Shown here: one piece after another, positions 1,437 to 35,763 of the stretch | How positions within the stretch are numbered: the first letter of the stretch is position 1 | Layout: each line of letters starts with the position of its first letter | Origin: Anaerolineae bacterium | Lineage (GTDB): Bacteria; Chloroflexota; Anaerolineae; Aggregatilineales; Phototrophicaceae | Length of the DNA: 57,310 nt | NCBI GenBank assembly: GCA_013360465.1 | Contig: JABWBO010000034.1 | Location: forward strand, 1 to 57,310 | Reading direction: 5' to 3' | The notes under the pieces: generated by a model | What the model was told of the DNA's origin: nothing | Database searches by the model: none | The model's input: only the letters and a program-made list of their open reading frames with translations | Program-made: the position numbers and the translations under genes

Positions 1437-2696
1437 TCAGCCCCTTGCGCGGGGTCGCGGCGTCGCGACGAGCGGCAGGACGATGCTGAAGGTCGTTCCC
1501 GGCGGCGCAAGCGGGTTGAAGCCGGGACTCTCGACCGCGATCTGCCCACCGTGCGCCTCGATGATGCCCTTGACGACGGCGAGTCCCAAGCCGATGCCGC
1601 CGCCGCGAAACGAAGTCTTGCTGGTGCTGTGCAGATCGGGGTTTTCGCTGGAAAAGAAGCGCTCAAAGATCGACCCGCAGTCTTCCGGCGAGATGCCGAT
1701 GCCGGTGTCGCGGAAGATCAGCCGGATGCGGTCGTTCTCCGGCTGGCAGGCGAGCGTGATGACGCCGCCGTCGGGCGTGAACTTGATGGCGTTGCTGATC
1801 AGGTTGCGGAATGCCAGCGAGAGCAGCTCCCAGTCGGCGACGACGCGCGTGTTCCACTGCGTCTTGTTGAACTGCACGGTCAGCCGCCGCTCGCCGATGG
1901 CGCGCGCGTAAACCTGCAATGCCCGTTCGGTCAGGTCGCCCAGGTTGCAGGGACCGATGGTCAGCTCGATCTGATTGGTCATGATGCGGCTGATGGTCAG
2001 AATCTCGTCGATGATGTTCTGCATCCGCAGGATCGACTCGGTCAGCCCTTCAAAGAGCATCTTGAGATTGGGGTTGCTCTGCCCCAGGCTCCGCAGTTCC
2101 GGGTTCTCTTCCAGCAGGCGGTTGTAGCCGATCACCAGGGTCAGCGGGGTGCGCAGTTCGTGGGCGGTGAGCTGGATGAAGACGTCCTTCATGCGGTCGA
2201 AGCGCTCTAACTGCCGGTTCATCCGCTCCAGATCGCGGATACGCGTTTCCAGTCGGCTGACCACCTCGCGGATGTAGCGCGTCTGTGCATCGTTGAGCGG
2301 CGCTGCATCGGTCACATCGCGCCCGCCGGTCAGGTAGAAGGCGACCCGGTCCAGCAGATGATCGATATCGATGGGCTTGGTCATATAGCCGGTGATGCCC
2401 GCCGCCTGGGTCAGCTCGCGGTGTTCCGCCAGGGTCATCGCCGTGAGGGCGACGATAGGCGTCGCAGCGAAGGGGGGGTCGGCGCGCAGCATGGTGGTGA
2501 TCTCGCGTCCGGTCAGGTCGGGCAGGTTGATGTCCACCAGGATCAGATCGGGGCGCGTCCGCCGCGCGATGTCGATGCCGTCCAGCCCGCAGTCTGCCAC
2601 CTGGACATGATAACCACCGTAGCGCAGCGCGCGTTCCACAAGCGACCGGCTGGCGGCGTCGTCCTCGATGTACAGGATGCTTTGCTGCTTGTTCAA
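1437..2696 (-). CDS. response regulator receiver-histidine kinase (REC-HisKA-HATPase)
   Basis: A 419-residue soluble protein. Residues 5-122 form a receiver domain with acidic residues EDD at 11-13, phospho-acceptor Asp55, Thr85 and Lys107. A coiled coil at about 140-168 leads to a HisKA helix with His179 in the motif TAHELRTPLT. The ATPase domain has an N box (NLISNAIKF, Asn302), a G1 box (DTGIGI, about 330) and a G2 box (GGGIGLGLAVV, about 365). All catalytic elements look intact, so it should be an active kinase whose activity is gated by an upstream phosphorylated receiver rather than by a ligand. The start is TTG, with a GGGGG run about 12 bases before it. A weak terminator-like hairpin separates it from the threonine synthase fusion upstream, so it may be expressed at a different level. 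Confidence 0.92.
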   Translation of the reverse strand: MNKQQSILYIEDDAASRSLVERALRYGGYHVQVADCGLDGIDIARRTRPDLILVDINLPDLTGREITTMLRADPPFAATPIVALTAMTLAEHRELTQAAGITGYMTKPIDIDHLLDRVAFYLTGGRDVTDAAPLNDAQTRYIREVVSRLETRIRDLERMNRQLERFDRMKDVFIQLTAHELRTPLTLVIGYNRLLEENPELRSLGQSNPNLKMLFEGLTESILRMQNIIDEILTISRIMTNQIELTIGPCNLGDLTERALQVYARAIGERRLTVQFNKTQWNTRVVADWELLSLAFRNLISNAIKFTPDGGVITLACQPENDRIRLIFRDTGIGISPEDCGSIFERFFSSENPDLHSTSKTSFRGGGIGLGLAVVKGIIEAHGGQIAVESPGFNPLAPPGTTFSIVLPLVATPRPRARG

Positions 2697-10400: not shown

Positions 10401-13239
10401 GCTGCACACGGGTGGGCCAGCCTGTCGCATCCAGGCTGCCGACGAACGTCCCCAGCTCGAAATCCAGAGCTTTGTCGGCGCTGGTGCTGACGGCGGCGCG
10501 CACCAGTTCCGGGATGCTGGTCGCCATGTTGATGATGCGGCTGGCGCTGTAGAGACGTTCAATTTCCGCCAGGGCGATCTCGTTCTGGCGCAGCAGCAGA
10601 CGGGCGTCGATGGCGACACCTGCCTGGTCGATCAGGGCGCTGTAGATGCGACCGTCGCGCTCGCTGAAGCTGCGGGTCTCGGCGAACTCGACGAAGAGGA
10701 TGCCGCGCCACGTGCCGCGCAAGCTGAAGGGGATCAGCACCATCGAGCGCCCGCCCATATTGCTCAGCAGCGCTCGCAGCACCTCGTCCAGCCGAGCGTC
10801 TCGCTCGGAATCGGTGACCAGCACTACCTCGGTCGGCTGCATCCCGGCGATCAGCGGGTGATCTTCGACGCGCAGCTCCAGACCACTCAGGACGACTTCA
10901 CGCGCCTCTTGAACGTCGAATTTCCAGTCGGAGACGATCTCCAGCCAGCTCGGCTTCTCGTCTGCCGGATACTCGTCGAAGATGCCGATCTGCCCGGCGA
11001 TGGCGTCGGGCATGACCGAGATGATGATCGCCTGGATGACATCATCCAGCGAGGTCGCCTCGTTCAGGTAGCGGCTCAGCTGATAGAGCGAGAAGGTCTC
11101 GGAAAGCGACGACTGAGTCTCTTCGAAGAGACGAGCGTTCTCGATGGCGATGGCGACGCGCTCGGCGACCGTCGTCATCAAGGCACGATCCGCTTCGGTG
11201 AACTTCGCGCCTTCCGCTGGCGCGGCGTCCAGCGAGCCGACCGTTTCCCCACGAATCCGGATCGGCGCGCTGATGCTTCCGGGGGGGAGTTCGCGGGGGG
11301 TTCCAGCGGTGATGCGCAGCAGATCGTAGCTGAACGCCGGCGATCCGCCGCTGACGCTCAGCGCTTCTTCCCAGGCGGTGCGGGTCAGCTGCCGGTTCAG
11401 GTTGTCGATCTGCTGATAGCGCTGGTCAGATTCGACCAGCAGGCGCACGTTCTGAATGGCGACGGCGATCTGATCGGCGATCATCTGAAAGACGCGAACC
11501 TCTTCCGGCTGGAAGGCGTTCGGCTGCGTACTCTGAATGTCGAGCGCGCCGATGATCCGGTCAACGTATTGCAGCGGGACCGCCATCTCGGCGCGGGTTT
11601 CCGGCAGCAGCGGGTTGGGACGGTGCGGCAGGGTGGTATCCGGCGTACTGGTGTCGTTGACCACGACCCATCTGCCGGTCGATGTCACCTGCCCGATGAC
11701 CGACTGCGATCCGACGGGCAGCTTGTGCCCGCGTTCCAGCAGCAGACGCCCACGTTCGCCATAGCTGTAGACCAGCACGGCGTTTTCGCTGGCGTCGTCC
11801 AGCAGGAACACCTGCGCGTGGTAGAAGCCGTATTCCTCGCAGAGCTGGCGAATGGTGCGGTTGAGCAGATCGTCGATGTCGTTGAGCGTCGCCGTCTCAC
11901 GGCTGACGCGCGCCGAAAGATCGATGTTGCGCGTGAACCGCCCGCGCTGGACTTCCAGCTCCTTCTGAAGTTCGCCCACCCGCGCCGATATTGTGCCCAG
12001 CGCGCCCAGCATCTCCTCGACATCTTCGGTGATGTTCCTGGCGGCGCTTGAAGGCAGGGTCAGGATAGTTTCCGAAGTTCCTCCTGTCGCCGCGTCCGCC
12101 GCACGGGAGGGAGCCGCCGACTCGCGCGCCATCTGGCTGGCGAGGTCGCGCATTTCAACCACCGGCTGCAGCGTGCGCCGCATGGCATAGGCGATCAGCG
12201 CGATGAGTCCCAGCGAGGCGAGCTGAATGACGACCAGCAAGCCCAGCCCCAGCAGCAGGCTGTCGCCCAGAACGGCGACTTCATCGTCGATCAGCACCGC
12301 ATACCAGGCGCGCCCGGTTTCGGCTGCGCCCAGCGGCAGAATCACCGATGAGACGATCTGCGCGCCGAAGGAGTCGCCGCTGCGCTCGACGGTGTAATCG
12401 TCTATGCCTTCAGGCAGGATTTCGACGGCAGCCGGCGCGTCGCCGTCGAAGAGGGCGCGAACGTAGTCGATCTCGCGGTTTTGGGTGTCGTAAAGCAGGC
12501 TGCCGCTGCTGTCGATGATCGCCACGCGACGCCCGGGTTCCTCGCTCACCATCAGATCGATCTGCGCCTGCATCTCGCGCAGCAGGGTGGAAGCATCAAC
12601 GTCGATCTCGATGACGCCGGCGAAGTCGAAGACGACGTTTTCCGTCGCAACGGGCGCAGCGATCCGCAGGATCGGGCGCTGGCGTTCGACGAATGTCAGC
12701 CCTGCCGCCCTTCGGAAGAACACGCCTTCCATCAACGCCTGACCTGGATCAAGATCGGCTGCGCCCGTCAGCAGGGCGTCGCCCGCCATTTCGCTCAGAC
12801 GAAGCTGCCGGTCGATCTCCACAATGCTGCTCGCGCTGAGCGCCGCCTCCGTCCAGACGGTTCCATTGAAGGTGACGTAGCGGATGCTGGTATAGGTTCC
12901 GATGTTGTCTTCCAGCAGTTCAGCGAATTCGGAGATCATCTCCGTCTGCGAGTCGATGAGCGTGGCGGAACCGGTGACCAGGGTATCGCGGGCGAAGGCG
13001 CGCACGTTGCGCCGCGAGGCGAGATCGACGGCATCGTTTTCCAGCCGGATCAAGCCGTCGCGCACGTTTTCCAGCGCGGCGGCAAGCTGAAGCCGCTGCT
13101 GTGCGATCAGGGTGGTGCGGGCGTTGAAGCGCACCAGCACCAGCGTGGCGATCCCGCCCGCCAGGGAGATCACGATAATGAACGGGACGACAAGCCGCAG
13201 GGCGCGGCGGTAGAGCGTGCGGTCGCTTGTTCTCTGCAT
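4453..13239 (-). CDS. giant membrane hybrid histidine kinase with ten GAF domains, PAS and two receivers
   Basis: 2928 residues. A membrane helix at about 16-37 and another at 327-352 bracket an extracytoplasmic Cache-like sensor. A coiled-coil/HAMP-like linker follows. Ten full-length GAF domains lie at about 450-600, 715-880, 893-1055, 1065-1235, 1245-1408, 1550-1705, 1715-1865, 1875-2040, 2053-2213 and 2217-2385, with a half-GAF at 650-705 and a PAS at 1411-1545. HisKA has His2410 in NMSHELRTPL; ATPase motifs are NLVSNASKF (about 2525), DTGIGI (2562) and GGTGLGLPIA (2591). REC1 has Asp2735 but Arg2784 in place of the conserved Lys; REC2 has Asp2856, Thr2886 and Lys2906. The ATG follows the preceding gene by 10 bases. 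It is probably the central kinase for the four upstream sensors, which is inference from operon position and shared GAF types. Confidence 0.93.
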   Translation of the reverse strand: MQRTSDRTLYRRALRLVVPFIIVISLAGGIATLVLVRFNARTTLIAQQRLQLAAALENVRDGLIRLENDAVDLASRRNVRAFARDTLVTGSATLIDSQTEMISEFAELLEDNIGTYTSIRYVTFNGTVWTEAALSASSIVEIDRQLRLSEMAGDALLTGAADLDPGQALMEGVFFRRAAGLTFVERQRPILRIAAPVATENVVFDFAGVIEIDVDASTLLREMQAQIDLMVSEEPGRRVAIIDSSGSLLYDTQNREIDYVRALFDGDAPAAVEILPEGIDDYTVERSGDSFGAQIVSSVILPLGAAETGRAWYAVLIDDEVAVLGDSLLLGLGLLVVIQLASLGLIALIAYAMRRTLQPVVEMRDLASQMARESAAPSRAADAATGGTSETILTLPSSAARNITEDVEEMLGALGTISARVGELQKELEVQRGRFTRNIDLSARVSRETATLNDIDDLLNRTIRQLCEEYGFYHAQVFLLDDASENAVLVYSYGERGRLLLERGHKLPVGSQSVIGQVTSTGRWVVVNDTSTPDTTLPHRPNPLLPETRAEMAVPLQYVDRIIGALDIQSTQPNAFQPEEVRVFQMIADQIAVAIQNVRLLVESDQRYQQIDNLNRQLTRTAWEEALSVSGGSPAFSYDLLRITAGTPRELPPGSISAPIRIRGETVGSLDAAPAEGAKFTEADRALMTTVAERVAIAIENARLFEETQSSLSETFSLYQLSRYLNEATSLDDVIQAIIISVMPDAIAGQIGIFDEYPADEKPSWLEIVSDWKFDVQEAREVVLSGLELRVEDHPLIAGMQPTEVVLVTDSERDARLDEVLRALLSNMGGRSMVLIPFSLRGTWRGILFVEFAETRSFSERDGRIYSALIDQAGVAIDARLLLRQNEIALAEIERLYSASRIINMATSIPELVRAAVSTSADKALDFELGTFVGSLDATGWPTRVQLAARSSQGQMIVETTTIDLPVSEDSPLRRRDPVLLQESEDGQGPFFDYLRMRGSKHVVIMPLFSVNQPIALFFILGSEARYLGEDELEVYRALTSQMSTVLQNRRLLEQSESALDETRRLYSASRAISGAGDLPGVFAAAVNGIASGGSNIARLSVFSAPGASYQAAYLDCVYVHPPQAEPAQADIHVGLRLPRAAVPLADILKEEEAAVYFPDVRVDVRGWDAVRILSERSGSRAVLLAPMRSRLRFYGLILLESDQPDAFPEPLINFAQAVSDQAAAAVESILAFQEAQVQAQRALALAEAGQLAAAVGSAFEESVGEVFARVAQPAQYDRWLLALVNSQGTILEKVTQRLPGVTQSSNERPEFYDLATDRTPISLAFLEKRTLLINEPSAFPSLAELPEPVLNLYGKHLVTPVRRGSEVIGTVMVGRSRSAPDLDENDEQLIKTLAAQISVAVENRRLFGDAERERERLGAILSTLPAGVAVVDAATFGVVQYNAQAVSILGEALSEGVVISPDNFRLMRSGTDTPYPDEGLPFRTAAETGDPESSDDISILLADGSEMDLLITSAPLFDVDGAMTAIITAFQDITGLRRLERTLEANLRETVALYETSRALSESETIDDVLDQIIGQISTQEPSEAYVVLLKPDDAGIEIARSMSGDLGAWALPDELLDPDKVQFIRDVASDFELDDAVRIALLKRNIQSLAVLPLRTRGQVPLGWIILEYDRLEDFSPEREQFLLTLNDSAAVTLDNRYLFRSTTTALQETAQLYDATAMISRARSQENIAQALQRSLATLNPDMFAAYVSIEGEPVELFNVAMDADPVDFKDLLKHHDLISLPTMFLDDLRALSRPTPLEADLLRIGNIRAIAVVTLQAQDASTGVLFVGYHFPRRFQSGEGRYLSAIADSASVVLDNYLLLERIQSTLEETSKLYQASRALGDASEPEDILKIVADYLLGPQISQALAVSLVSAAWDVPNALARISATWYAAGEEIVDLAGISLTEEQFPAWRLLATPELITLDDAETDPSLSEIERIGLASLSLRSLAILPLRAGGRSIGCLILGSGQPHRYNERDQRIYRSFAEQASLRLEATRSLRQAERRSRQLVTSSEVSQIAGSLLDLDVLLPRIVDLIRERFDYDHVQIFLMDEEDRWARLRASTGSAGQQLLSIGHKLQKGSQSVIGQVTATARPTIAADTADAHVIHRPNPYLPDTRSEMAIPLVLKGRVVGALDVQSNIPNAFDGDDVLVLTTLAGQVATAIDNAQLYDQARQRANEMGFLFNVTTAAASADTLSHAVQNVANELANSLIALSVAVYLPEQYLDSEENEFTMLRPIALSGSGQPLSELSEVRLDISQNLIASAANSRRSVRLDDLASETRYLPVDERARSAMIVPLTSGTQLVGVVLLESDQVNAFNEDTLTLLLTLAGTLSAIVQNQQLLERVQTQNDALRELDRLKSDFLANMSHELRTPLNSIIGFSRVILKGIDGALTEMQEQDLTTIYNSGMHLLNLINDILDQAKIAAGKMDLQFDYFEVKTVIDGVRSIGIGLVKDKAIDIIADLAPDLPKAYGDEFRIRQVLLNLVSNASKFTREGSITISAYPVRDGETGKKLVRIDVTDTGIGIAEKDIPLLFEAFRQVDSSLTRTAGGTGLGLPIAKSLVEMQGGQMLVQSTVNIGSTFSVVMPIEPVVDTEEQTKRKTDQLKETGKLVSRNVTGPLKMQQPPSELVDTSTDLQRIMTRKRQILLIEDAPDMVDQFRRALAREGFEIFAATIPLEAEAMASGLHPTLIIMDVNFANGTGWDILKHLKDRDDTLDIPVIVVSLSGEAQRVLDAGAFRFVQRPFLPDDIITAVKDAEIESHVDRILIIDDQPEHSRLIQQILAQSGRYKVIAASSGMEGIAIVARRRPNLIILDLRMPDMDGFQVVQELRNNPETATIPILIVTGEALTNEERQQLMNLAVLFKSNITTNEYRELLDEVKGFLDRD

Positions 13240-13249
13240 CGTCTACAAC

Positions 13250-15517
13250 CTACCGATCACCGTTTCCATTCACCGGGCGTGTATTGCTTTCGGCAGCGCT
13301 GCCGCCGTTCTGATCGCGCGTGGTCTCCAGGCGAATGCTGACCTGGGGCGCGCGAAGCGCCTGACCCACCTCGCGGACCGCCGTCTGCAAGATGTCATTG
13401 ATGTTGGTCTGTGCCGTCAGCTTGGCGACGATGGTGTTCACCACGCGCTCGCGTTCGGCGGTGCGCTGACTTTCCTGGAAGAGGCGGGCGTTGTCGAGGC
13501 TGAGCGCCAGACGAGCCGCCAGCTCCTTCGCCAGTTCCAGCCGGTCTTCGCTCAGTACGCCGACCGGGATTTCCCATTCGACCACGCCCAGCGTTTGACC
13601 GCGCAGCGCGATCGGCACGGCGACGGGGATGGTCTGGCGGGGTGTTGTCCCCCCGACGATCGGCTCGCCCGTCCGCAGCGCCGTCTGGCGCAGGTCGCTG
13701 AAATCCGATTCGGAGGCGACGCCCGCCTCGCGGGAGATTTCGGCGGCGCGGCGTTCCCGCATGAAATCCTGCCAGGCGCGCAGCGTCGCGGCGCGGTTGC
13801 GCTCTTCGATGTCCTGCAGGCGGCGGCTGAGATCTTCATACAGGCGGGCGTTCTGAATGGCGACGGCGATCTGATCCGACATCGTTTGAAGCACCGCCAC
13901 CTGCGCCTCGCTGAAGGCGTCGCGCTCGCGGCTCTGCACATCCAGCGCACCGATGATCGTCTCGCCGACCCGCAGCGGGACCGCCAGTTCGGCGCGCGTG
14001 TCTGGCAGAAACTCGTTGCGTTTGTGTATCTGGCTGACGGCGGTGTCGCGCGCCGTCACCACCTGCCCCTGCGATGTCACCTGCCCGATGACGCTCACCG
14101 ATCCGACGCCCAGCCGGTGACCGCGCCGCAGCAGCTCCTGACCGACCGGTCCGGTGCTGGCGCGCAGCAGGGCGTCCTGCCCGTCGGTGTCGATCAGGAA
14201 GATCTGCGCGTGGTAGATGTTGGGGAAGCGCTGGACGATCAGGTTCACCACGCTGTCCATGAGGCGCTGCAAATCGCGCTGTGTGGCGGCGAAACGGCTG
14301 ATCTCCTGTGTGGCGTTCAGGTCGCGGGTGCGCGCTTCGACGCCTGCCTGAAGCTCTGCGACCTGCCCCTGTACGTGATCGCGCAGGGTTTCGATGCCCG
14401 CCGCCAGCGCGCCGACCTCGTCGCGCCGCTTGGTTTCAAGGATGGCTGCGCTCATATCGCCGTAGGACATGCCGAGGACGGCGCGGCGCAGACGATTGAG
14501 CGAAGGAGTCACCATCTGGTTCAGCAGCAGCGCGGCGAACACCAGCAGCGCAAGCGCGCCGATCACCGCGCCGAAACGCCGGGTCAGCACGATGTTCTGC
14601 GCCTGGGCGATGACGCTTTGTGTACTCACCTGGGCGACCAGCGCCAGCGGCAGACCGCGCAGCGGGGTGAAATAGCCGATGTATTCCACGTCATCATCGG
14701 TGTTATAGAAGGCGCTGCCATCCTGCCCAGCAAGCCCGCGATCCACCGCCACCGAGCGTGAAGCGGCGAGGATGTCCGGGCGCATGCCGGCGGGGGTGAT
14801 CAGCACCTCGTTAGCGGAATACAGGAAGGTCGCAATCTGATAGATGTCCTGCCCTTCCGGCTGCCGCAGCGAGTCGAAGAAGACGCGCCGATTATCGAGA
14901 CGGGCGACCAGATAGCCGAGCGGCGATCCATCGCGCCACCGCAGAATTTCGACCAGCTCGACGATTGGCGTGAAGTTGACGTGGGCAATCGAAACGGTGC
15001 GGACTTCGCCGCGCAGCGCGGCATTCGAGCCGGAGACGTAGGCGGGGGCGCGCGCCCCTGCTGGATCGCCCGCCAGCGGCGTCGAACGCAGCGCCTGCGC
15101 CAGCAGACCTCCGTCACGGTCGATCAGGCGGATGCTTTCGAAGAGCGACGATGGCAGCAGCAGCTCCTCGCGCAGCAGCGTCGTCATCTGACTGGGCGTG
15201 ACATCGGGCAGGTTGATGGCGCTGCCGACGACGACATCGCGCAGCAGCAGCCCGTTCAGGCTGTCGATGTTGGACTCGACGAATTCGAACGCCACCTCGC
15301 TCGCCAGGTTGACCGTCCCATTGATTTCCGCCGCCTGCCGCGCCCCGGTCTCGGCGACCAGCGTCGAGGCATTGCTGAGAGCGAGTTCCACCGTCGCCTG
15401 GACGTTCGTCGCCACCGCCAGGGCGATCAGAACCACACTGACCACCACCAGGGTGAGCGTGAACTTGACCCCAAGGGACCAGGAAGTCGGATTCAGGAGA
15501 GCCGCGCCTCGGATCAT
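13250..15517 (-). CDS. Cache-HAMP-GAF sensor protein without kinase domain
   Basis: A 755-residue sensor. A membrane helix at about 18-38 and a second at 314-334 bracket a 275-residue extracytoplasmic Cache-like domain. A HAMP-like segment follows (about 335-400), then a GAF domain at 410-562 with the array signature GSVSVIGQV and LPDTRAELAVPL. A Trp-containing linker (Trp582) leads to the second half of a GAF (about 630-682, PIALRGQTLGVVEW and ALSLDNARLF). The protein ends with the first half of another GAF (690-731) and a polar tail. No HisKA, ATPase, receiver, GGDEF or other output is present, so it must signal through a partner; the giant kinase encoded 10 bases downstream is the likely one. 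ATG start with a GGGGG run about 12 bases before it. Confidence 0.88.
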   Translation of the reverse strand: MIRGAALLNPTSWSLGVKFTLTLVVVSVVLIALAVATNVQATVELALSNASTLVAETGARQAAEINGTVNLASEVAFEFVESNIDSLNGLLLRDVVVGSAINLPDVTPSQMTTLLREELLLPSSLFESIRLIDRDGGLLAQALRSTPLAGDPAGARAPAYVSGSNAALRGEVRTVSIAHVNFTPIVELVEILRWRDGSPLGYLVARLDNRRVFFDSLRQPEGQDIYQIATFLYSANEVLITPAGMRPDILAASRSVAVDRGLAGQDGSAFYNTDDDVEYIGYFTPLRGLPLALVAQVSTQSVIAQAQNIVLTRRFGAVIGALALLVFAALLLNQMVTPSLNRLRRAVLGMSYGDMSAAILETKRRDEVGALAAGIETLRDHVQGQVAELQAGVEARTRDLNATQEISRFAATQRDLQRLMDSVVNLIVQRFPNIYHAQIFLIDTDGQDALLRASTGPVGQELLRRGHRLGVGSVSVIGQVTSQGQVVTARDTAVSQIHKRNEFLPDTRAELAVPLRVGETIIGALDVQSRERDAFSEAQVAVLQTMSDQIAVAIQNARLYEDLSRRLQDIEERNRAATLRAWQDFMRERRAAEISREAGVASESDFSDLRQTALRTGEPIVGGTTPRQTIPVAVPIALRGQTLGVVEWEIPVGVLSEDRLELAKELAARLALSLDNARLFQESQRTAERERVVNTIVAKLTAQTNINDILQTAVREVGQALRAPQVSIRLETTRDQNGGSAAESNTRPVNGNGDR

Positions 15518-15523
15518 GATTCG

Positions 15524-17188
15524 CTAACCCCCATCTGCACTGAGTCGCTGGACGGCGCCGGGCTGAAGCGAAACGCGCGTGTGAGTCGCGCCCAGGGCTT
15601 CGTTGAAGGTCTCGGCAGCCAGCGCCAGCACCTGTTCGATATCGGTCGCGGTCAGCAGCAGGCTGCCGACATCGCTCGCCTTGCGTTCGCGCTGCGCCTG
15701 TGCCTGGCTTTGTTCGAAGAGACGGTTGTTTTCCAGCGCTGCGCCGAGGCGGTTGGCGACGGTGCGCACCAGTTCGGTTTCCGATTCGCTGAGCGCCCGG
15801 TCGCCGCGCACTTCGAAAGTCATCGCGCCAAGCATCTGCCCGCGATAGCTGATCGGCGCGCTGATGACCCGGCTGCCGTTGACCTGCTGTACCACGACAT
15901 CGCCATGTTCCAGCGCCGCGCGCACCGACTGAGGCAGGTCGCTGGCGGCGACGAGCGCCTGTGATGCGCCGCCTTTGAAGTCATAGCCGTAACCGGTCAC
16001 GCCCAGACCGCGCAGGTAGCGTTCCCACCCGGCGCTGGTCGTGCCCTCTGCCCGCCGCTGCACTTCCGCCAGCTGCGACCGCAGCCGCTGCGCCGCGCCC
16101 TCCTGGTCGCGCACATCCGATTCCAGCGCGGCGATCTGCCGGAACTGCGCCAGACTGCGCCCAAGCTGTGCCGCCAGGGCGCGCAGCACGTCAATTCGCG
16201 ACGCCTCCAGACCGGCGGTATCGCTGGTCTGCACATCCAGGACGCCGAGGATCGTCCCCTCGAACAGGATCGGCACGCTGACGCTGAAGCGCAGCTGGTT
16301 GATCAGATGATCGGCGGCGCGCACGTCGGTGGGACGAATGATCAAAGGCTCGATCTCGCGCAGCACCATCTGCACGACCACATCGGCATTCACATCCAGC
16401 GTCAGGACCCCGCCGCTTTCCATCAGGCGATACCGACGGACTCCGCCCGCCTTGTTGTTGAGCATGAGTACCTGGGCGACGCTGTACCCCAACTCGTCGC
16501 GCCCGATGTGCAGCACCCGATCGACAGCGTCTTCTTCATTGATGAACACCCGGTCGGTCAGGACCTGGACGGCGCGCCACTGGCTGACCAGCATGTTGGC
16601 GTCGCGCGCTACCCGCTCCGGTGTCCCGCTGAAGGCGTAGAGGAAGGCGCCGATGAGCAGCACCATCGAAATCATCGTCAGCGTCTCGTTGAGCGCCAGG
16701 TCCGCCGGGGTGAAACGTTCGATCTGGACGAGCGACGCTTGATAGAAGCCGCTCAGGATCATGCCGCCGGCGCACACCAGCCCCACCAGGATCAAGCCGC
16801 GTCGGTCGAGCAGCACGCCGCCGGCGGCGACCGCGATGATCGGGGCGACTTGCAGCAGATCGATGTGCGAAACCAGCCCCAGAGGCGAAGTCAGCCCCAC
16901 CAGACCGCCGACGAACAGATACGAAGCTGCCGTCAGCCGACCACGCTGCACGGCGAGGTAAATCAGCACCAGCGCCAGCGGCGTCAGGGTCATCGAAAGG
17001 AAGAGATAGCCATTGCCGGGGATTTCGCCGCTGTTCACCAGCGGCAGGATGACCAGCGCATACATCGCCAGCCAGATGACCGACCCCGCCAGCGTCATCG
17101 TCAGCAGGGCGCGCGCCCGCTGACGCTCGATAGCGTCGGTATAGCCGTATCTCAGGCTGAAGAGCCAGCCGATCACACGAGCGATCAT
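15524..17188 (-). CDS. polytopic membrane GAF sensor without kinase domain
   Basis: A 554-residue protein. Residues 28-185 hold about six hydrophobic helices, forming a membrane sensor or anchor of unrecognised type. A GAF domain follows at about 208-350 (VPILFEGTILGVLDVQTS near its end), then a coiled coil (350-382), a conserved Trp388 in GWERYL, a half-GAF at 440-492 (APISYRGQMLGAM and GAALENNRLF) and a terminal first-half GAF at 498-541. There is no output domain. The ATG overlaps the stop of the upstream gene in an ATGA, and the next gene begins 6 bases downstream, so translation is coupled. The architecture after the membrane part parallels its two neighbours, indicating duplication. Confidence 0.87.
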   Translation of the reverse strand: MIARVIGWLFSLRYGYTDAIERQRARALLTMTLAGSVIWLAMYALVILPLVNSGEIPGNGYLFLSMTLTPLALVLIYLAVQRGRLTAASYLFVGGLVGLTSPLGLVSHIDLLQVAPIIAVAAGGVLLDRRGLILVGLVCAGGMILSGFYQASLVQIERFTPADLALNETLTMISMVLLIGAFLYAFSGTPERVARDANMLVSQWRAVQVLTDRVFINEEDAVDRVLHIGRDELGYSVAQVLMLNNKAGGVRRYRLMESGGVLTLDVNADVVVQMVLREIEPLIIRPTDVRAADHLINQLRFSVSVPILFEGTILGVLDVQTSDTAGLEASRIDVLRALAAQLGRSLAQFRQIAALESDVRDQEGAAQRLRSQLAEVQRRAEGTTSAGWERYLRGLGVTGYGYDFKGGASQALVAASDLPQSVRAALEHGDVVVQQVNGSRVISAPISYRGQMLGAMTFEVRGDRALSESETELVRTVANRLGAALENNRLFEQSQAQAQRERKASDVGSLLLTATDIEQVLALAAETFNEALGATHTRVSLQPGAVQRLSADGG

Positions 17189-18990
17189 GCGCCTGCCCCT
17201 CCGTTACCATTACCGTTATGGGTGCCGTTCGCCGCCGGTTTGTTCTGAGCGCCGCCGTTCAGGCGCTGCATCCGCTCTGCGCCGCTTTCACCGCCCATTG
17301 CCGTATCGATGCCGCCCAGGCGGATCGAGGCATTGTCGGCGTTGAGCAGCGTCCCCAGTTCGCTCAGCGTGATGCGCAGCAGTTCATCCACCGTCGTCAC
17401 CGACTGGAACTGCGCCGCGATGGTGTTCACGCGCTGTTCTCGCTGGGCGATGCGCTGCGTCGCTTCGTAGAGGCGGGTGTTTTCCAGCGCCAAGCCCAAC
17501 CGCTCGCCCACCGTCTCGACCAGCCCGACCGTATCTTCCGCCGGAGATGCCGCATCCAGTTCGAATTCCATCGCGCCGATCACCTGCCCGCGCACCCGGA
17601 TCGGTACGGCGACCACCGATCCCTCGCCCTGCGGCTGGCGGACGGTCTGATCGCCTTGAAGCGCCTGGCGCAGCGACTGTGTCCATTCGCCCAGATGCTC
17701 CACTTTGTTGGTCCTGAAGTTGACATCGACGTTCGGAGTCCTGGTCTGATCGCCCAGGTACTCGGTCCAGGAACGCCCGGTTAGCTCGCGGTTCAGACGT
17801 TCGATTTCGCGCATGGCACCGCTCATCTGGTCGAGCAGCTGCTGATTCTCGTTCAGGCGGCGCTCCGTCTGTTCGAACAGACGGGCGTTCTCAATGGCTA
17901 CGGCGGTGATGTCGGCGAGCGACTGGAAGATGGGCAGGTCTTCATCCTTGAAAGCCTCAGCGCTTCGGCTTTGCAGGTCGAGCGCGCCGATCACCCGCTC
18001 GCCGACCAGCAGAGGGAACGCTGCCTCGATGACGGTTTCCGGCAGCAGTTCATTGCGCCGGTGTACCGTCTCGCCGGAAGCGGCGCGGGCGACGACCGAC
18101 CGCCCCGAAGCCGTCACCGTACCGATGACGCTCAGGCTGCCCACTTCCAGGCTGTGTCCGCGCGACAGCAGCAGCCTGCCGACATCGCCCGTACTCGCCG
18201 CCAGCCTGGCGCGCGAGCCGAATTCGTCGATCAGGAAGATCTGCGCGTGGTAAATGTCGGCGTAGCGGGCGATCACCTCGTTGACCGTCCGGCTCAGCAG
18301 TTCCTCCAGGGCGCTCTGACTGGCGATGCGTCGGGCGATATCGGTGGTGATGGTCGCCAGGCGCAGGCGGGCGGTTTCCGCCGCCGCGCGCACTTCCTGC
18401 CGTTCGCTGGATTGCATCCGCAGGAACATCCACAGCGCCAGCGCCGCGCCGATGACCATGATGGTGATGTCGAACAGATCTTCGAAGAGGGTGCGCGGGG
18501 GAGTCTGGGTGGGGTCGATCAGACTGCGGCGGTCCAGCCCGATCACCAGCAGGATCAAGCCGACGACGACGGCGATCAGGATGCCCCGCTCGCGGTGGGT
18601 GACGAAGCCGATCACCAGCAGCAGCAGCAAAGGCAGGGCGTCTGTGGTGGTGACAAAACCATCGCGCACCGACAGCATGACACCGCTCACCGCCCACATG
18701 GCGATGGGCAGGATGCCGGCGAGTTCCGTCCTGTCCATGCGGATGACGATCAGGCTGATAACGCCCCCGCCGTAGACGCCGAGGATCGTCAGCAGGATGA
18801 ACACATCGCCGTTCAGGGCGCGGGTGACAAAGCCCGCCGCTCCGCTCGCCATCTCCTGCAAGTCGTAGAGGAAGACGAACAGCATGATCACCAGGGTGAT
18901 GACGGCGCGCAGCCGCGCTAAATCCTGTGCCGCACGACTGACGACGTTCGAGGGCAGAAATAGTCGGTCAAAGAGAGGACGCAGCGTCAT
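17185..18990 (-). CDS. polytopic membrane GAF sensor without kinase domain, paralogue of its neighbour
   Basis: A 601-residue protein with about six membrane helices in residues 26-192, unrelated at first sight to those of the downstream paralogue. A GAF domain occupies about 215-373 with the array signature VGSLSVIGTV and VIGALDLQS. A coiled coil and Trp408 in SWTEYL lead to a half-GAF (458-510, VPIRVRGQVIGAM and LALENTRLY) and the terminal first-half GAF (515-560), followed by a Gly/Asn-rich tail of about 40 residues. No catalytic output is visible. The gene overlaps the genes on both sides by 4 bases (ATGA), a sign of translational coupling and fixed stoichiometry. Confidence 0.87.
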   Translation of the reverse strand: MTLRPLFDRLFLPSNVVSRAAQDLARLRAVITLVIMLFVFLYDLQEMASGAAGFVTRALNGDVFILLTILGVYGGGVISLIVIRMDRTELAGILPIAMWAVSGVMLSVRDGFVTTTDALPLLLLLVIGFVTHRERGILIAVVVGLILLVIGLDRRSLIDPTQTPPRTLFEDLFDITIMVIGAALALWMFLRMQSSERQEVRAAAETARLRLATITTDIARRIASQSALEELLSRTVNEVIARYADIYHAQIFLIDEFGSRARLAASTGDVGRLLLSRGHSLEVGSLSVIGTVTASGRSVVARAASGETVHRRNELLPETVIEAAFPLLVGERVIGALDLQSRSAEAFKDEDLPIFQSLADITAVAIENARLFEQTERRLNENQQLLDQMSGAMREIERLNRELTGRSWTEYLGDQTRTPNVDVNFRTNKVEHLGEWTQSLRQALQGDQTVRQPQGEGSVVAVPIRVRGQVIGAMEFELDAASPAEDTVGLVETVGERLGLALENTRLYEATQRIAQREQRVNTIAAQFQSVTTVDELLRITLSELGTLLNADNASIRLGGIDTAMGGESGAERMQRLNGGAQNKPAANGTHNGNGNGGAGA

Positions 18991-21236
18991 CGCTTTATCT
19001 CCGTCTGGCTCGTCGGCGCGTCAGAATCGGTGAGGCGCACGCGGGCGCGCCGTGCGCCCAACGCCCTGCCCAGTTCGCTGACGGCGCTGGTGACCAACCC
19101 TTCGACATCCGAGAACTGCTGGAAACGCGCCGTCACTTCGTTGACCATCGCCTCGCTTTGGGCGGCGCGCTGACTGCGCGTATAGGTGGCGGCATTTTCC
19201 AGCGCCACAGCCAGCAGGTTGACCATCTGCTGAAAGATCGCTCTGTCGGTGTCGCCATAGGCTGCTCCGGTTGGCGCGGCAATCGTCACCGTGCCCAGCC
19301 GGTGGTCGCGCGTTCGAATCGGCGCGATCATGACCGCGTTCGCGCCCGGCGTACGTCCCTCGCTCATGGTCATCATCACGCCGGTCGACCAGACCTGTCC
19401 GGCATGGGTATCCTTCAGCGCCAGCAGGGGACCATCCGCCGTAGAAATCTCGCTGTCGCCGTCTTCATAGCGCCCGACCACGCGCAGCAGCCCGTGATGT
19501 TCGTCGAACAGGGCGACGCTCATCTGATCCGTCGGCACGATGCCAACGCCGCTGGTCAGCATGACGCGCAGCACCGGTTCAGTTTCCAGCGAAGCTTGCA
19601 GCGCCTGACCGAGCGCCGCGACGGACTGCATCTGCTCCGCACGTCGGCGCGCTTCGTTGAAGAGGCGGATATTTTGCAGCCCGACCACCAGCTGCGAGGT
19701 CATCGTCTCCGCCAGTTCGACAGTCTCTGGCGAGAAGTAGCGCCCTTCCTCATAGAGGTCGAAGCCGATGGTGCCGATGAGCGCGTTCTGCACATTCAGC
19801 GGCAGGATCATGACCCCGCTCACGCCCACGCCTTTCAGCGCGGTACGCACCGACGGGGGGACGATGGGATCGGTGTCGATATTCTGTACGACCACCGCTT
19901 TGGAGGGATCGCGCAGCAGAGCGGCGATCATCGGATTGTCGCGCGTGTCGATAACCGTACCGACGGCGCCAGCATCGGGATACTCACTGAGGACAACGCT
20001 GGTGTGTCCGTCCGGTTGGATCAGCGCGACGCCGATGTGATCGATATTCAGCCCTTCCTGCATCTCGCGGATGATGTTGTCGAGGAGCTGTTTTTCGGTC
20101 TGAAAGCCGCTGATGCTGGTGGCGACGCGGTTGAGCAGCTGCAGCACGCGCACCTGCCGCGACAGCTGTTCAGCCCCCGCCTGTGATTCTTGCAGCAGGC
20201 GCTGGTTTTGCAGCACGATGTTGAGCTGGTCGGCGCTCGCCGCGTAAAGCCGGCGGTCCCGGCTGTCGAAGGCATGTGGCGTTTCGTATGCCACCGAAAC
20301 GATGTCGGCGTGCCGGTCGCTGGTCCGGGCGATGATCACGGCGTAGCTGCGGGTGCGTTCGCGCAGCAGCTCGAGCAGCGGCGCATCGGAGGATGCTGCC
20401 TGCACGTCCTCGACGAAGGTCACTTCGGTCTGTTCGCCGCTCAGCAGTTTGCCGATGCGCAGCCCTTTGATCGGGATACTGACGACCTGTTCGCCCTTAC
20501 GGGTGATGATATGCTGCACCGCCACATCTTCGCCGCCGTCGCGGCGACGGCTGACGGAGACGTGCATGATCGTATCGGCGTCTGGCGCGAGATGCGTGGA
20601 GATGGCGCGCAGCAGTTCCAGCGGGTCCTGGGCGGCGAGCAGCCCCCGGTTGAGTTCGTAGAGGGTCTGCACTTCGCCGAGCGACGATTCCGTGCGCCGC
20701 AGCAGTGCCCGGTTTTCGAAGACGACGGCGATCTGATCAGCGAGGTTGCGCAGCGCCCGCAGCGTGGGCGTGGACGTGGTCACCGGTTCCGGGTTGGACA
20801 TCATGATCAGCCCGGTCATGTTCTGCCCGACCAGCAGCGGCACGATCAGCAGCGCGGTGACGTTCTCCTGTGTCAGCTTTTCGCGTTCTTCGTCGGTCAG
20901 AAACGGGTCATCCTCGATGCGCGCCGCGTAGAGATATTCCACCGCGCCGAGCGTCTCGTAAGCCGGGTAAGTGCTGAACGGACGCAGCGTGTTGGCTGCG
21001 ACGATAGAGCTTCCGGCGCGCTGGGCGACGATGCGCAGTTTCGGCGGGTCGAGGTCCGGCTCGATCAGCGCCAGCTGCGCCTCCTGATACGCCTTTCCTC
21101 CAAAAACCACGACGGCGGAGAGTATCTCCGCCGCATCGGATGAACCGTAGATGGCGCTCGCCGCCGCGTACTGCGCCTCGGCAAGCTGGACCGTTTGATT
21201 GGAGTCGTTCGGATCAAAAGTCTCGTTCACTTCCAT
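18987..21236 (-). CDS. soluble four-GAF sensor protein without kinase domain
   Basis: A 749-residue protein without membrane segments. Four GAF-like units follow one another, at roughly 20-180, 190-355, 370-530 and 540-700, each ending in a helix of the type IVLQNQRLLQES or VVGLQNIRLFNEA that continues into a coiled coil to the next unit. It ends with the same first-half GAF tail seen in the three genes downstream (about 705-738). There is no kinase, receiver or DNA-binding domain. It overlaps the upstream receiver gene by 10 bases and the downstream sensor by 4. It probably senses small molecules in the cytoplasm and joins the membrane sensors in one complex; ligands cannot be predicted. Confidence 0.87.
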   Translation of the reverse strand: MEVNETFDPNDSNQTVQLAEAQYAAASAIYGSSDAAEILSAVVVFGGKAYQEAQLALIEPDLDPPKLRIVAQRAGSSIVAANTLRPFSTYPAYETLGAVEYLYAARIEDDPFLTDEEREKLTQENVTALLIVPLLVGQNMTGLIMMSNPEPVTTSTPTLRALRNLADQIAVVFENRALLRRTESSLGEVQTLYELNRGLLAAQDPLELLRAISTHLAPDADTIMHVSVSRRRDGGEDVAVQHIITRKGEQVVSIPIKGLRIGKLLSGEQTEVTFVEDVQAASSDAPLLELLRERTRSYAVIIARTSDRHADIVSVAYETPHAFDSRDRRLYAASADQLNIVLQNQRLLQESQAGAEQLSRQVRVLQLLNRVATSISGFQTEKQLLDNIIREMQEGLNIDHIGVALIQPDGHTSVVLSEYPDAGAVGTVIDTRDNPMIAALLRDPSKAVVVQNIDTDPIVPPSVRTALKGVGVSGVMILPLNVQNALIGTIGFDLYEEGRYFSPETVELAETMTSQLVVGLQNIRLFNEARRRAEQMQSVAALGQALQASLETEPVLRVMLTSGVGIVPTDQMSVALFDEHHGLLRVVGRYEDGDSEISTADGPLLALKDTHAGQVWSTGVMMTMSEGRTPGANAVMIAPIRTRDHRLGTVTIAAPTGAAYGDTDRAIFQQMVNLLAVALENAATYTRSQRAAQSEAMVNEVTARFQQFSDVEGLVTSAVSELGRALGARRARVRLTDSDAPTSQTEIKR

Positions 21237-21670
21237 TCCCAGACCTCCTCGCCGTTGAGCAGATGTCGAATCTGCCCAGGGAACCGGTCAGGATCGAGCG
21301 GCTTGCCCAGGAAGCCGTTGAACCCCGCTTTGCGCGCCCGCCGCATCTGCTCTTCGCTGGCTTCGGCGGTGACGGCGCAGACCATCGTATCTTTCAGGCG
21401 GGGGTTGGCGCGCAGTTTGACGAGCGCCTGGTAGCCGTCTTCGTAGGGCAGGCGGATGTCCATCAGGATGAGATCAACACGGGGGAGGGTGTCTGCGAAC
21501 TGGACGACCTGCCAGCCAGAGGTCTTCCACTCGCAGCGCTGCACGCCCATGAATGCGAGCATGCGGGCGATCAGCACGAAGTTCGGCACATTGTCTTCGA
21601 CAACGAGGACGTGCGCCTCGCTGGGTTCAATCGGCGTCCGTTGGCTGGTGCTGCTTTGCGCGTCGCTCAT
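21227..21670 (-). CDS. single-domain response regulator (CheY-like)
   Basis: A 147-residue receiver domain protein with a Ser/Thr/Gln-rich N-terminal 18 residues. Key residues are Glu25/Asp26/Asn27, phospho-acceptor Asp71 in LILMDIRLPYEDG, Thr91 and Lys123 in GFLGKPLD. There is no output domain, so it acts as a phosphorelay shuttle or through protein contact. The ATG at 21670 is preferred over more upstream starts because AGGAG lies 6 bases before it. The gene overlaps the upstream receiver gene by 44 bases and the downstream sensor by 10. Confidence 0.9.
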   Translation of the reverse strand: MSDAQSSTSQRTPIEPSEAHVLVVEDNVPNFVLIARMLAFMGVQRCEWKTSGWQVVQFADTLPRVDLILMDIRLPYEDGYQALVKLRANPRLKDTMVCAVTAEASEEQMRRARKAGFNGFLGKPLDPDRFPGQIRHLLNGEEVWEWK

Positions 21671-22043
21671 GCCCGCTCCTGATGTAAGAGAGTACTTCGT
21701 TCGGAAATCTGTCGATGTCAATTGGCTTCGAGATGTACCCGTCGCATCCCGCCGCCAAACTGCGTTCTTTGTCGCCCCGCATGACGTTTGCCGTCAGCGC
21801 GATGATCGGAACGGCGCGCAGCTGCGGAATCTCGCGCAGCGCTCTGGCGGCGCTCAATCCGTCCATTTCCGGCATGCTCAAATCCATCAGGATGATGTCG
21901 AGGGAGAGCTGACGAGCGAGGTCGATCCCTTTTCGCGCAGACTCGGCTTCGTGAACCTGAAACGCCTCATCTGAAGCCATGAGGACCCTTCGCACCAGTA
22001 TCCGGTTTTCAGGGTTGTCTTCGATGTAGAGGACCTGATGCAC
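21627..22043 (-). CDS. single-domain response regulator (CheY-like), first gene of the sensory array
   Basis: A 138-residue protein made almost entirely of one receiver domain, with Glu8/Asp9/Asn10, phospho-acceptor Asp54 in IILMDLSMPEMDG, Thr84 and Lys106 in GYISKPIDIDRF. A hydrophilic tail of about 15 residues follows. The GTG start is supported by AGGTGA 5 bases upstream. It leads the minus-strand array and is preceded by a leader of about 200 bases that contains a strong nested hairpin element. It probably accepts phosphate from one of the two kinases encoded downstream, which is inference. Confidence 0.92.
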   Translation of the reverse strand: MHQVLYIEDNPENRILVRRVLMASDEAFQVHEAESARKGIDLARQLSLDIILMDLSMPEMDGLSAARALREIPQLRAVPIIALTANVMRGDKERSLAAGCDGYISKPIDIDRFPNEVLSYIRSGHERRAKQHQPTDAD

Positions 22044-34120: not shown

Positions 34121-35146
34121 TTAGGGTGCAAGTGGTGTAAAAATGATCTGAGAAAGAAGCGTCTCGACCGCCCCTTGCGGGTCGATCTCCCGTGATTGAA
34201 TGCGTCCCGTCATGCCGTCGAGTGCATCAGCCGGAAGCTGCCGCAGCAGCCGTTCCATCAACGTATCCCGAAGACGTTCCTGTATCTCGATACTGAACTG
34301 CCCCTGTTCCAGCGCCGAGCGGCGCTCGCCCTGTGAAAGAAACTGCCGGTGCTGCCCGATGGCGGTGATCAGCACATCCATCCCCTGGTTGTCGCTGGCG
34401 ACCGTCTCGACGATGGGCGGCAGCCACATGCCATTGTCGGCAGTGGGCTGTGTCTCAACCGCCATCAATCGCCCGTGATGCCCGACCATGCCCGCCTGAC
34501 GGGTGGGGTGTCCCAGTTCGAGCATGGTGCGCAGCGCGCGCACCGTCTGTGCCGCGCCGGGGCGGTCGGCTTTGTTGACCACCAGCACATCGGCGATCTC
34601 CAGGATGCCTGCCTTGATCGCCTGAACCTCATCGCCCATCCCGGGCGCTTCTACGACCAGCGTGGTGTGCGCCGCCCGAACGATATCCACCTCGTTCTGA
34701 CCTGCGCCGACCGTCTCGATCAGGATGATGTCGAAGCCGGCGGCATCCAGCACGCGGGCGGCGTCGCGCGTCGCTTTGGACAGCCCGCCAAGGCTGCCGC
34801 GTGTCGCCATGCTGCGAATGAACACGCCGACGTCGCCCGCTAGATCGCGCATGCGGATGCGATCGCCGAGGATCGCCCCGCCGGTGAAGGGGCTGGTCGG
34901 ATCAACCGCCAGGATGCCGACCTGATGTCCCTGGCGGCGATATGCCTGAGTCAGCGCGTTGACCAGCGTGCTTTTACCCGTCCCCGGCGAACCGGTGACG
35001 CCGATCACCCAGGCGCGTCCTGTGTGCGGAAATAAAGCCGCGAGGGTTTCATCGACACCCTCGCGCCCATTTTCCACGCTCGTGAGCAGCCGGGCGACGG
35101 CGCGCCGCTCCCCACGCAGGATTGCCTCGACCTGGACGGTCATCAA
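34121..35146 (-). CDS. meaB: methylmalonyl-CoA mutase-associated GTPase MeaB
   Basis: 341 residues of the G3E/ArgK-type SIMIBI GTPases. The P-loop GSPGTGKST is near 54, followed by [19 protein letters not shown] near 83, [12 protein letters not shown] near 144 and NKAD near 193. MeaB gates loading of adenosylcobalamin into methylmalonyl-CoA mutase and protects it from inactivation. The gene overlaps the B12-binding protein gene upstream in an ATGA, which fits that role. The large catalytic subunit of the mutase is not in this window, so it must be encoded elsewhere. Confidence 0.95.
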
Positions 35147-35556
35147 TCCCCCTGTTTTGCCGCCGCGATCTGACGAATGAAAGTCACGATGTCGTGCGTG
35201 TTCGTTCCGGGACCAAAGATACCGCGAACGCCCATCGCTTCCAACTGCGCTTTGTCCTCGTCGGGGATGATGCCTCCGACGAGCAGCGGCACGTCGCGCA
35301 GATCGTGCTGATCCATCACTTCGCGGATGCGCGGAACCAGCGCCATATGCGCGCCGCTGAGGATGCTCAGCCCGACGACATCGACATCTTCCTGCAGGGC
35401 GGCTTCGGCGATCATCTCCGGCGTCTGGCGCAGCCCGGTATAGATGACCTCCATGCCGGCGTCGCGCAGCGCCCGTGCGATCACCTTCGCCCCTCGGTCA
35501 TGCCCATCCAGCCCCGGTTTGGCGATCAACACCCGGATGGTCTCTACGGCTGTCAT
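35143..35556 (-). CDS. stand-alone B12-binding subunit of methylmalonyl-CoA mutase type
   Basis: 137 residues, the size of one cobalamin-binding domain. The B12 signature is complete: GLDGHDRG (DxHxxG, the His that ligates cobalt) near residue 16, SILSGAH (SxL) near 64 and LLVGGIIP (GG) near 91. It is closest in type to the C-terminal domain of methylmalonyl-CoA mutase or of the small subunit of split mutases, which rearrange methylmalonyl-CoA and succinyl-CoA or related acyl-CoAs. Coupling with meaB supports this. AAGGA stands 12 bases before the ATG. Confidence 0.93.
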
Positions 35557-35625
35557 GATGCGTGGTTTCCTTCCCGTGATCTGAGCAGTTTCAGGACGTT
35601 ACGACGTCTTGAACCAGCATGTGAA

Positions 35626-35631
35626 ATTATA
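35626..35631 (-). promoter_or_regulatory. -10 element of the B12-binding/meaB operon
   Basis: A perfect TATAAT on the minus strand (35631-35626) lies about 70 bases before the ATG at 35556. No convincing -35 is visible at the right distance. The leader is too short for a cobalamin riboswitch. Confidence 0.4.
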
Positions 35632-35720
35632 ACATATGCCGTCGCCCACCCGCTAAAACGCCCGTCCTGGAATCGCGGACGACGGCTGTGTGACGGCAAG
35701 CCTCAAGTTCATAACGATGG

Positions 35721-35726
35721 TACAAT
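35721..35726 (+). promoter_or_regulatory. -10 element of the large histidine kinase gene
   Basis: TACAAT lies 37 bases before the ATG at 35764, with GAGG as ribosome site. No good -35 is found 16-18 bases upstream, so an activator may be needed. Confidence 0.35.
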
Positions 35727-35763
35727 CGAGCTATCCGCGGTGGAACCTGGGCGAGGCTTCGTT

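Follow-up and report, generated by a model that had tools for sequence, protein, structure and literature searches.

What does half of a sensing domain do at the end of a sensor? This question is raised by four neighbouring genes in the window, i.e. the whole analysed stretch of 57,310 nucleotides from an Anaerolineae bacterium (contig JABWBO010000034.1). Their products, P0001 to P0004, are sensors without a kinase domain. An earlier note on this DNA had proposed that all four end in the beginning of a GAF domain, that three of them also carry a Trp linker with the second half of a GAF behind it, and that such conserved halves pair between chains and are not products of decay. The four ORFs had been placed correctly, all of them on the minus strand between positions 13,250 and 21,236 (Table 1). 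Read on that strand, a receiver protein is followed by P0004, P0003, P0002, P0001 and the large hybrid histidine kinase P0005. P0004 and P0003 as well as P0003 and P0002 overlap by four bases each, and a gap of six bases separates P0002 from P0001. On the 3' side of P0005 follow a threonine-synthase-like enzyme fused to a receiver and then a short receiver-HisKA-HATPase protein (positions 1437-2696, minus strand).

Table 1. Coordinates of the sensor array and its neighbours in the window (aa, residues of the encoded protein).
Feature	Position	Strand	Remarks
Stand-alone receiver-domain protein	21227..21721	(-)	upstream of P0004
P0004, first sensor of the array, 749 aa	18987..21236	(-)	three GAF stretches, no Trp module, tail at the end
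P0004 C-terminal tail, aa 679-735	19032..19202	(-)	tail profile 77.1 bits
P0003, sensor, 601 aa	17185..18990	(-)	N-terminal membrane segment (hydropathy), GAF, Trp module, tail
P0003 Trp module, aa 401-501, W408	17488..17790	(-)	compact GAF by prediction
P0003 C-terminal tail, aa 502-558	17317..17487	(-)	tail profile 74.7 bits
P0002, sensor, 554 aa	15524..17188	(-)	N-terminal membrane segment (hydropathy), GAF, Trp module, tail
P0002 Trp module, aa 381-484, W388	15737..16048	(-)	
P0002 C-terminal tail, aa 485-541	15566..15736	(-)	tail profile 62.9 bits, lowest of the four
P0001, sensor, 755 aa	13250..15517	(-)	membrane helices flanking an extracytoplasmic region (hydropathy), HAMP-like stretch (below the Pfam cut-off), GAF, Trp module, tail
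P0001 Trp module, aa 575-673, W582	13499..13795	(-)	
P0001 C-terminal tail, aa 674-730	13328..13498	(-)	tail profile 82.9 bits
P0005, multi-GAF hybrid histidine kinase, 2928 aa	4453..13239	(-)	HisKA, HATPase, two receivers; no tail
P0005 shortened Trp module, aa 615-699	11143..11397	(-)	four strands, no alpha3 (low-to-moderate-confidence model)
Threonine-synthase-like PLP enzyme fused to receiver, 567 aa	2781..4484	(-)	frequent kinase neighbour

The shared C-terminal module is present in all four proteins, but it is larger than the approximately 40 residues first proposed. It comprises about 57 residues in the order helix-helix-strand: the last helix of the preceding GAF continues into a long helix, which is followed by a second helix and a strand, for example SIRL, RVSL or RVRL. 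Beyond the strand there is a short, fast-changing extension of 13 to 43 residues in the four window proteins and of 3 to 72 residues (median 14) in 462 relatives, rich in G, E, A, P, S, D and N. The tail elements alpha1-alpha2-beta1 are homologous to the N-terminal halves of GAF domains, as seen in profile matches to PDB sequences and to internal GAF starts as well. The complete GAF sheet with its ligand-pocket half is absent, and the C-terminal pieces of the four proteins (82-106 aa) gave no match to Pfam GAF models, even with the threshold relaxed to E≤10. An AlphaFold2 model was obtained for the sensor P0003 (residues 205-565, 110-row alignment; mean pLDDT 92.9, pTM 0.73). In the predicted fold, a complete GAF leads into a helix of 66 residues, and W408 sits close to the end of that helix; a compact GAF with five strands and then the tail helices follow. 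The tail helices (485-530 and 534-548) are confident in this monomer, hence the disorder which the earlier note had considered did not appear. The strand region is unpaired (blocks at pLDDT 80-91), but an unpaired strand in a monomer model is not evidence of pairing elsewhere. Tandem-GAF structures rank top in a fold search with the whole P0003 model.

The Trp linker is found in three sensors as claimed (P0001 582 WQDFM, P0002 388 WERYL, P0003 408 WTEYL) and not in P0004; the neighbouring kinase has a variant motif (623 WEEAL). That it is followed by merely half a GAF needs revision. The stretch behind the Trp matches the second half of the Pfam GAF model only (in P0002 GAF_3 53-129), but in the P0003 model the entry helix ends just past the Trp and leads into the compact GAF. 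By its Pfam GAF matches and by the five strands and the helix predicted in P0003, the sensor Trp module can be classed as a GAF. In the window kinase and its relatives from the same order this module is shorter than in the sensors. The distance from the Trp to a conserved Pro has a median of 36 residues in 36 kinases versus 52 in 370 sensors, 60 of which are also at 36 or below. The model of the P0005 module (mean pLDDT 81.8, pTM 0.57) contains four strands, the first two in blocks at pLDDT of approximately 55-67.

We compared 460 tails with the starts of 408 internal GAFs encoded at the same loci. Typical tail residues are E17 (90%), E43 (74%) and R or K at position 26 (69%). Strand position 56 is R or Q in 73% of the tails versus F or Y in 70% of the internal starts, and it is hydrophobic in 9% of the tails versus 92% of the full GAFs. 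The strand presents a polar outward face in tails, where full GAFs have an aromatic one; positions 53, 55 and 57 are still mostly hydrophobic in tails. P0002 is the odd one among the four, with L, T and S at positions 26, 43 and 56. Among PDB sequences, ten match the tail profile over the first helices and the strand at E≤0.001, with 8w26_A as the best (59.9 bits over two stretches) and 6oap_A and 2lb5_A among the others. The best stretch ends at profile position 55 in all ten, and the second stretch of 8w26 extends to 57. Judged in part by their names, these entries are phytochrome-like GAFs. Five aligned phytochrome-type GAF starts from the PDB have E17 in three, K or R at position 26 in three and E43 in all five cases. 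Hence, these residues may reflect ancestry and the tail helices look inherited, and the polar outward strand face looks, judged from the alignments, like a change that accompanied the loss of the pocket half. In cross-validation, 460 of 460 tails and 0 of 408 internal GAF starts were assigned to the tail class, a separation that partly reflects descent from a phytochrome-type GAF and was obtained with both halves drawn across clades.

The tail is the most constrained part of the four proteins, and this constraint stops at the end of the strand. Four gene pairs from the window genome (G000) and a near relative (G006) gave a dN/dS of 0.069 in the tail (228 codons, 7 nonsynonymous differences), compared to 0.179 upstream (1898 codons), 0.164 in the Trp module or last GAF (438 codons) and 0.620 in the extension (95 codons). 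Identity among 12 P1-type orthologues is 0.69 in the tail versus 0.44 in the Trp module, and 18 of 34 invariant columns fall in the 57 tail columns of a 179-column alignment. The lack of conservation among orthologues, which the earlier note had listed as counter-evidence, was not observed; its view that the tails are not decaying agrees with these values and with the maintenance of the tail across the class. A remnant, i.e. a GAF truncated by gene fission that is now decaying or neutral, would explain the homology to the start of complete GAFs. But the low dN/dS, the class-wide persistence and the strand face turned polar leave this explanation next to no probability, and the dN/dS together with the persistence refutes it in practice.

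Furthermore, the tail is strictly terminal. Matches to the tail profile end within 70 aa of the stop in 218 of 233 cases at 60-80 bits and in 179 of 226 at 50-60 bits, and among weaker matches in 63 of 192 at 40-50 bits and 13 of 789 at 10-40 bits. Among 58 further loci, some of them from genomes used before, 41 of 44 tail-type segments were terminal, three were located in ORFs open at the end and none was internal in a closed ORF, whereas none of 78 GAF-type segments was terminal. The internal segments examined included no natural fusion of a tail with the following GAF half. In its own genome, the tail is confined to this array. A search of the whole genome with the class-wide profile gave six matches at E≤1e-6, the four of the window (bit scores in Table 1) and two at 34.7 and 33.0 bits; since the four strong matches are exactly these neighbours, their common tail is not due to chance. 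A large ORF elsewhere in the window (35122-39915, plus strand, 1597 aa) showed weak, GAF-start-like matches of 23.7 and 11.9 bits.

Tails occur in 59 of 199 sampled genomes of the class (profile at 1e-12). A query of Trp module plus tail at E≤0.001, a level that plain GAFs can reach too, matched 40 of 41 near genomes including its own. Among the loci fetched to that point, 466 ORFs of relatives, nearly all Anaerolineae, end in a tail (score of 35 bits or more, no more than 75 aa between tail end and stop, duplicates removed); 434 were long enough and 423 representatives were kept, 374 of which have the Trp. We mapped 57 clusters with 316 tail genes, 1 to 12 per cluster, and these genes are co-directional in all 57. 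A scripted Trp-module test was passed by 246 of the 316; it was failed by the first tail gene in 49 of 57 clusters versus 21 of 259 later genes, some 'first' genes being ones cut by the end of the fetched stretch. A large histidine kinase without a tail lies 3' of the tails in 41 of the 57 clusters; none was seen there in the other 16, several of which are on stretches that end early. In none of the 57 clusters does an ORF identified as a kinase by its motifs end in a tail. A second, short kinase was found further along in four maps (G003, G031, G036, G037). In 32 of the 57 clusters a threonine-synthase-like (PALP) gene follows the kinase, and a ParA-like gene was seen in 15, a count in which overlapping ORFs can hide further ones. 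Overall, these sensor arrays are class-wide, and the tail is their conserved half-GAF module in a strictly terminal position.

Several additional observations were made in these arrays. The fusion of PLP enzyme and receiver behind the hub kinase, confirmed by Pfam in the window and in L178, was also seen at L178:5070-6746, L184:4964-6640 and L188:5678-7348, and the window version retains the lysine motif TASFKDR. Periplasmic substrate-binding proteins (NMT1-like, Peripla_BP_6) are encoded within arrays at L177:13716-14687 and L187:6633-7829. Small secondary loci with tail-like matches of 57-66 bits exist apart from the main array (G264:C29:40627-44037 and G337:C7:624307-627590).

Docking or assembly is the likeliest role of such a module, with a GAF split between chains as one form of it. 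The tail would then be a GAF N-half (alpha1-alpha2-beta1) that was turned into a terminal plug joining the sensors and the hub kinase. We give this reading an even chance, which already contains the chances of its two special forms, with the Trp module or a kinase head as recipient. Kinase-less sensors with different inputs would share one terminal plug, the plug may assemble them, together with the hub kinase from the array end, into a single complex, and the signal would pass from the last GAF via the continuous helix and the plug to the kinase. What we infer here is that the chains are in contact, that the kinase is the recipient and that the signal runs in this direction; the Trp module of a neighbouring chain and, in family f9, the kinase head are candidate recipient sites.

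The conservation of the tail also fits a self-contained cap. The tail would then do no more than seal off the dimeric coiled coil at the end of each sensor homodimer, and it would bind no other protein. We consider this somewhat unlikely, because a cap need not be so constrained across paralogue types nor limited to these arrays, and the kinase-less sensors would be left without a link to the output. Nevertheless, the couplings within the tail are consistent with it. In a pooled mean-field analysis of the 423 sequences (effective number 335), 23 of the top 86 pairs lie within the tail versus 6.1 expected (12 and 27 in two lineages), and a coupling between the strand and the first helix's end appears in each lineage (529-557, z 3.1 and 4.4), though z falls to 0.9-1.1 within types at the two finest levels. 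Further pairs within the tail, 527-544 and 518-552, go down to z 1.0 and 1.4 in f9, and 527-544 is maintained within types in the window's order (z 3.8-4.8). The pairs 28-56, 26-43, 17-51 and 20-44 score 4.3-4.8 in tails versus at most 0.3 in internal GAF halves, scores that are near the top of both lists and rest partly on lineage differences. Pairing of halves between chains, as the earlier note had it, would mean that the tail strand lines up next to the final strand of a Trp module on a neighbouring chain, either the next sensor or the kinase. The gene layout argues for this form: a tail-only sensor, sensors with Trp module plus tail and a Trp-bearing kinase make the number of tails equal to that of Trp modules, an arrangement that the window shares with 17 of the 26 order-level clusters for which a kinase was mapped. 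Moreover, in a set restricted to the window's order (230 sequences, effective number 188), ten of the top 60 pairs join Trp module and tail, and the pairs M474-A554 and F476-A554, which link the last module strand to the tail strand, take ranks 3 and 5 of all pairs. These are the neighbours expected if the tail strand took the place of beta1 beside the last strand, and they would be contacts between chains because a straight helix of 46 residues makes contact within the same chain unlikely. With a division into five paralogue types, both pairs are in the top 0-0.7% of the background at three of four clustering levels, but at the finest level they drop to z 2.2 (background fraction approximately 0.22), and the strand-by-strand block within coarse types is unraised (mean z 3.39 versus 3.41 for the background), in a control that leaves the phylogeny inside types in place. 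In the pooled set, pairs between Trp module and tail are even depleted (8 of the top 86 versus 26.3 expected by share), and f9 has eight such pairs among its top 60, but different ones, with F476-A554 at z 2.2 and rank 467. Hence, paralogue and lineage structure weakens the case from the couplings, and the M474/F476-A554 pairs represent a hint of pairing between chains in the window's clade and no more. The P0003 module is predicted with first strands of its own, the f9 kinases scored no Trp module, and the first genes of 49 of 57 clusters bear the tail without this module. Altogether, we regard this form as unlikely.

An alternative recipient is the kinase itself. Kinases beside tail arrays vary in architecture; HisKA, HATPase and receiver are combined in P0005 and in the L178 kinase, and not every hub is a hybrid, since the L084 kinase showed no receiver. 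The f9 kinases are soluble and begin, after a linker, with beta4-beta5-alpha5 of a GAF. In the PAS/GAF fold, beta1 adjoins the last strand, and for this reason the halves on tail and kinase head would fit together into one pocketless GAF between chains. Exactly this half is present in 17 kinases, entered as 20 ORFs because three pairs stem from overlapping loci (72-122 bits), with 13 invariant columns in a 15-row alignment; Pfam matched profile positions 98-133 only, and the domains behind the head vary. This head and the order-level couplings are what speaks for pairing of halves between chains; the compact P0003 module, the pooled depletion and the tails of the first genes speak against a pairing with the Trp-linked part. 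However, heads above 90 bits occur in 9 of 199 class genomes, all of family f9, and at 1e-10 the head is matched in 24 genomes, versus tails in 59 of 199. In six other families (f17, f104, f126, f15, f91, f119), kinases near tails begin differently, as judged from their first 260 residues, and a good match to the head is lacking in the window's genome (best E 0.001). We regard the kinase-borne half as unlikely, too.

The f9 kinases have a second peculiarity: for all 17 with the head, a ParA-like gene lies in the kinase's own locus or in one that overlaps it. A ParA/MinD-like ATPase of approximately 261 aa is encoded before the kinase in f9 and some other arrays (L178:971-1813, L184:93-878, L181:4056-4844). 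A basic kinase start, M-[SP]-K-K ... R-L-x-x-L-F, was found by pattern in 9 of 41 listed kinases and by eye in several more with an over-extended or variable ORF start; none of the listed membrane kinases matches it. Kinases encoded next to the ATPase show a tendency towards this basic start, and the peptide could be a partner of the ATPase.

A wider view, which we put forward tentatively and with considerable doubt, is that the Anaerolineae sensor arrays run on a GAF split between chains, with the N-half borne by interchangeable sensors, the C-half socket elsewhere and ParA positioning in some families. The tail strand of one chain would be inserted next to the final strand of a C-half socket in a second chain; this socket might be the Trp module in the window's order, supplied by the following sensor or by the kinase, and the N-terminal kinase head in f9. 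The reassembled pocketless GAF could serve as a universal plug and socket that transmits a signal from helix to helix, and in some families a ParA-type ATPase may position the array via the basic N-terminal kinase peptide. If true, an open-ended set of receptors would be wired to one kinase without couplers of the CheW/CheA type, half of a very common sensing domain would be a standard connector, and terminal half-domains, usually dismissed as truncations, could be conserved working parts. The tail provides a sharp sequence marker for locating such arrays in the class.

A literature search found no description of such a tail or of such arrays; a search on split or partial GAF gave matches only on psychiatry and a seaweed. 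Among known systems, the closest are GAFs of the phytochrome/cyanobacteriochrome type (PF01590/PF13185), the first helices and strand of which match the tail profile; in contrast to them, the tail consists of alpha1-alpha2-beta1 only and has no pocket half behind. Plant ethylene receptors differ from the tail sensors in being eukaryotic, in their complete GAF and in having kinase-type domains on the receptor, and we know of no terminal half-GAF among them. They are GAF-bearing and found in high-mass complexes, and some of the associated mass is assigned to the GAF segment (PMC2799528). Chemosensory MCP-CheW-CheA arrays resemble the tail arrays in that many kinase-less receptors stand beside one main kinase. 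The ParA/MinD-like ATPase gene in some tail arrays is a further likeness, to chemosensory arrays with ParC/ParP positioning (PMC5706961). Pfam gave no MCP, CheW or CheA match in P0001-P0004, P0005 or the L084 and L178 kinases. Compared to chemosensory arrays, the tail arrays combine a GAF-based chain with a HisKA kinase.
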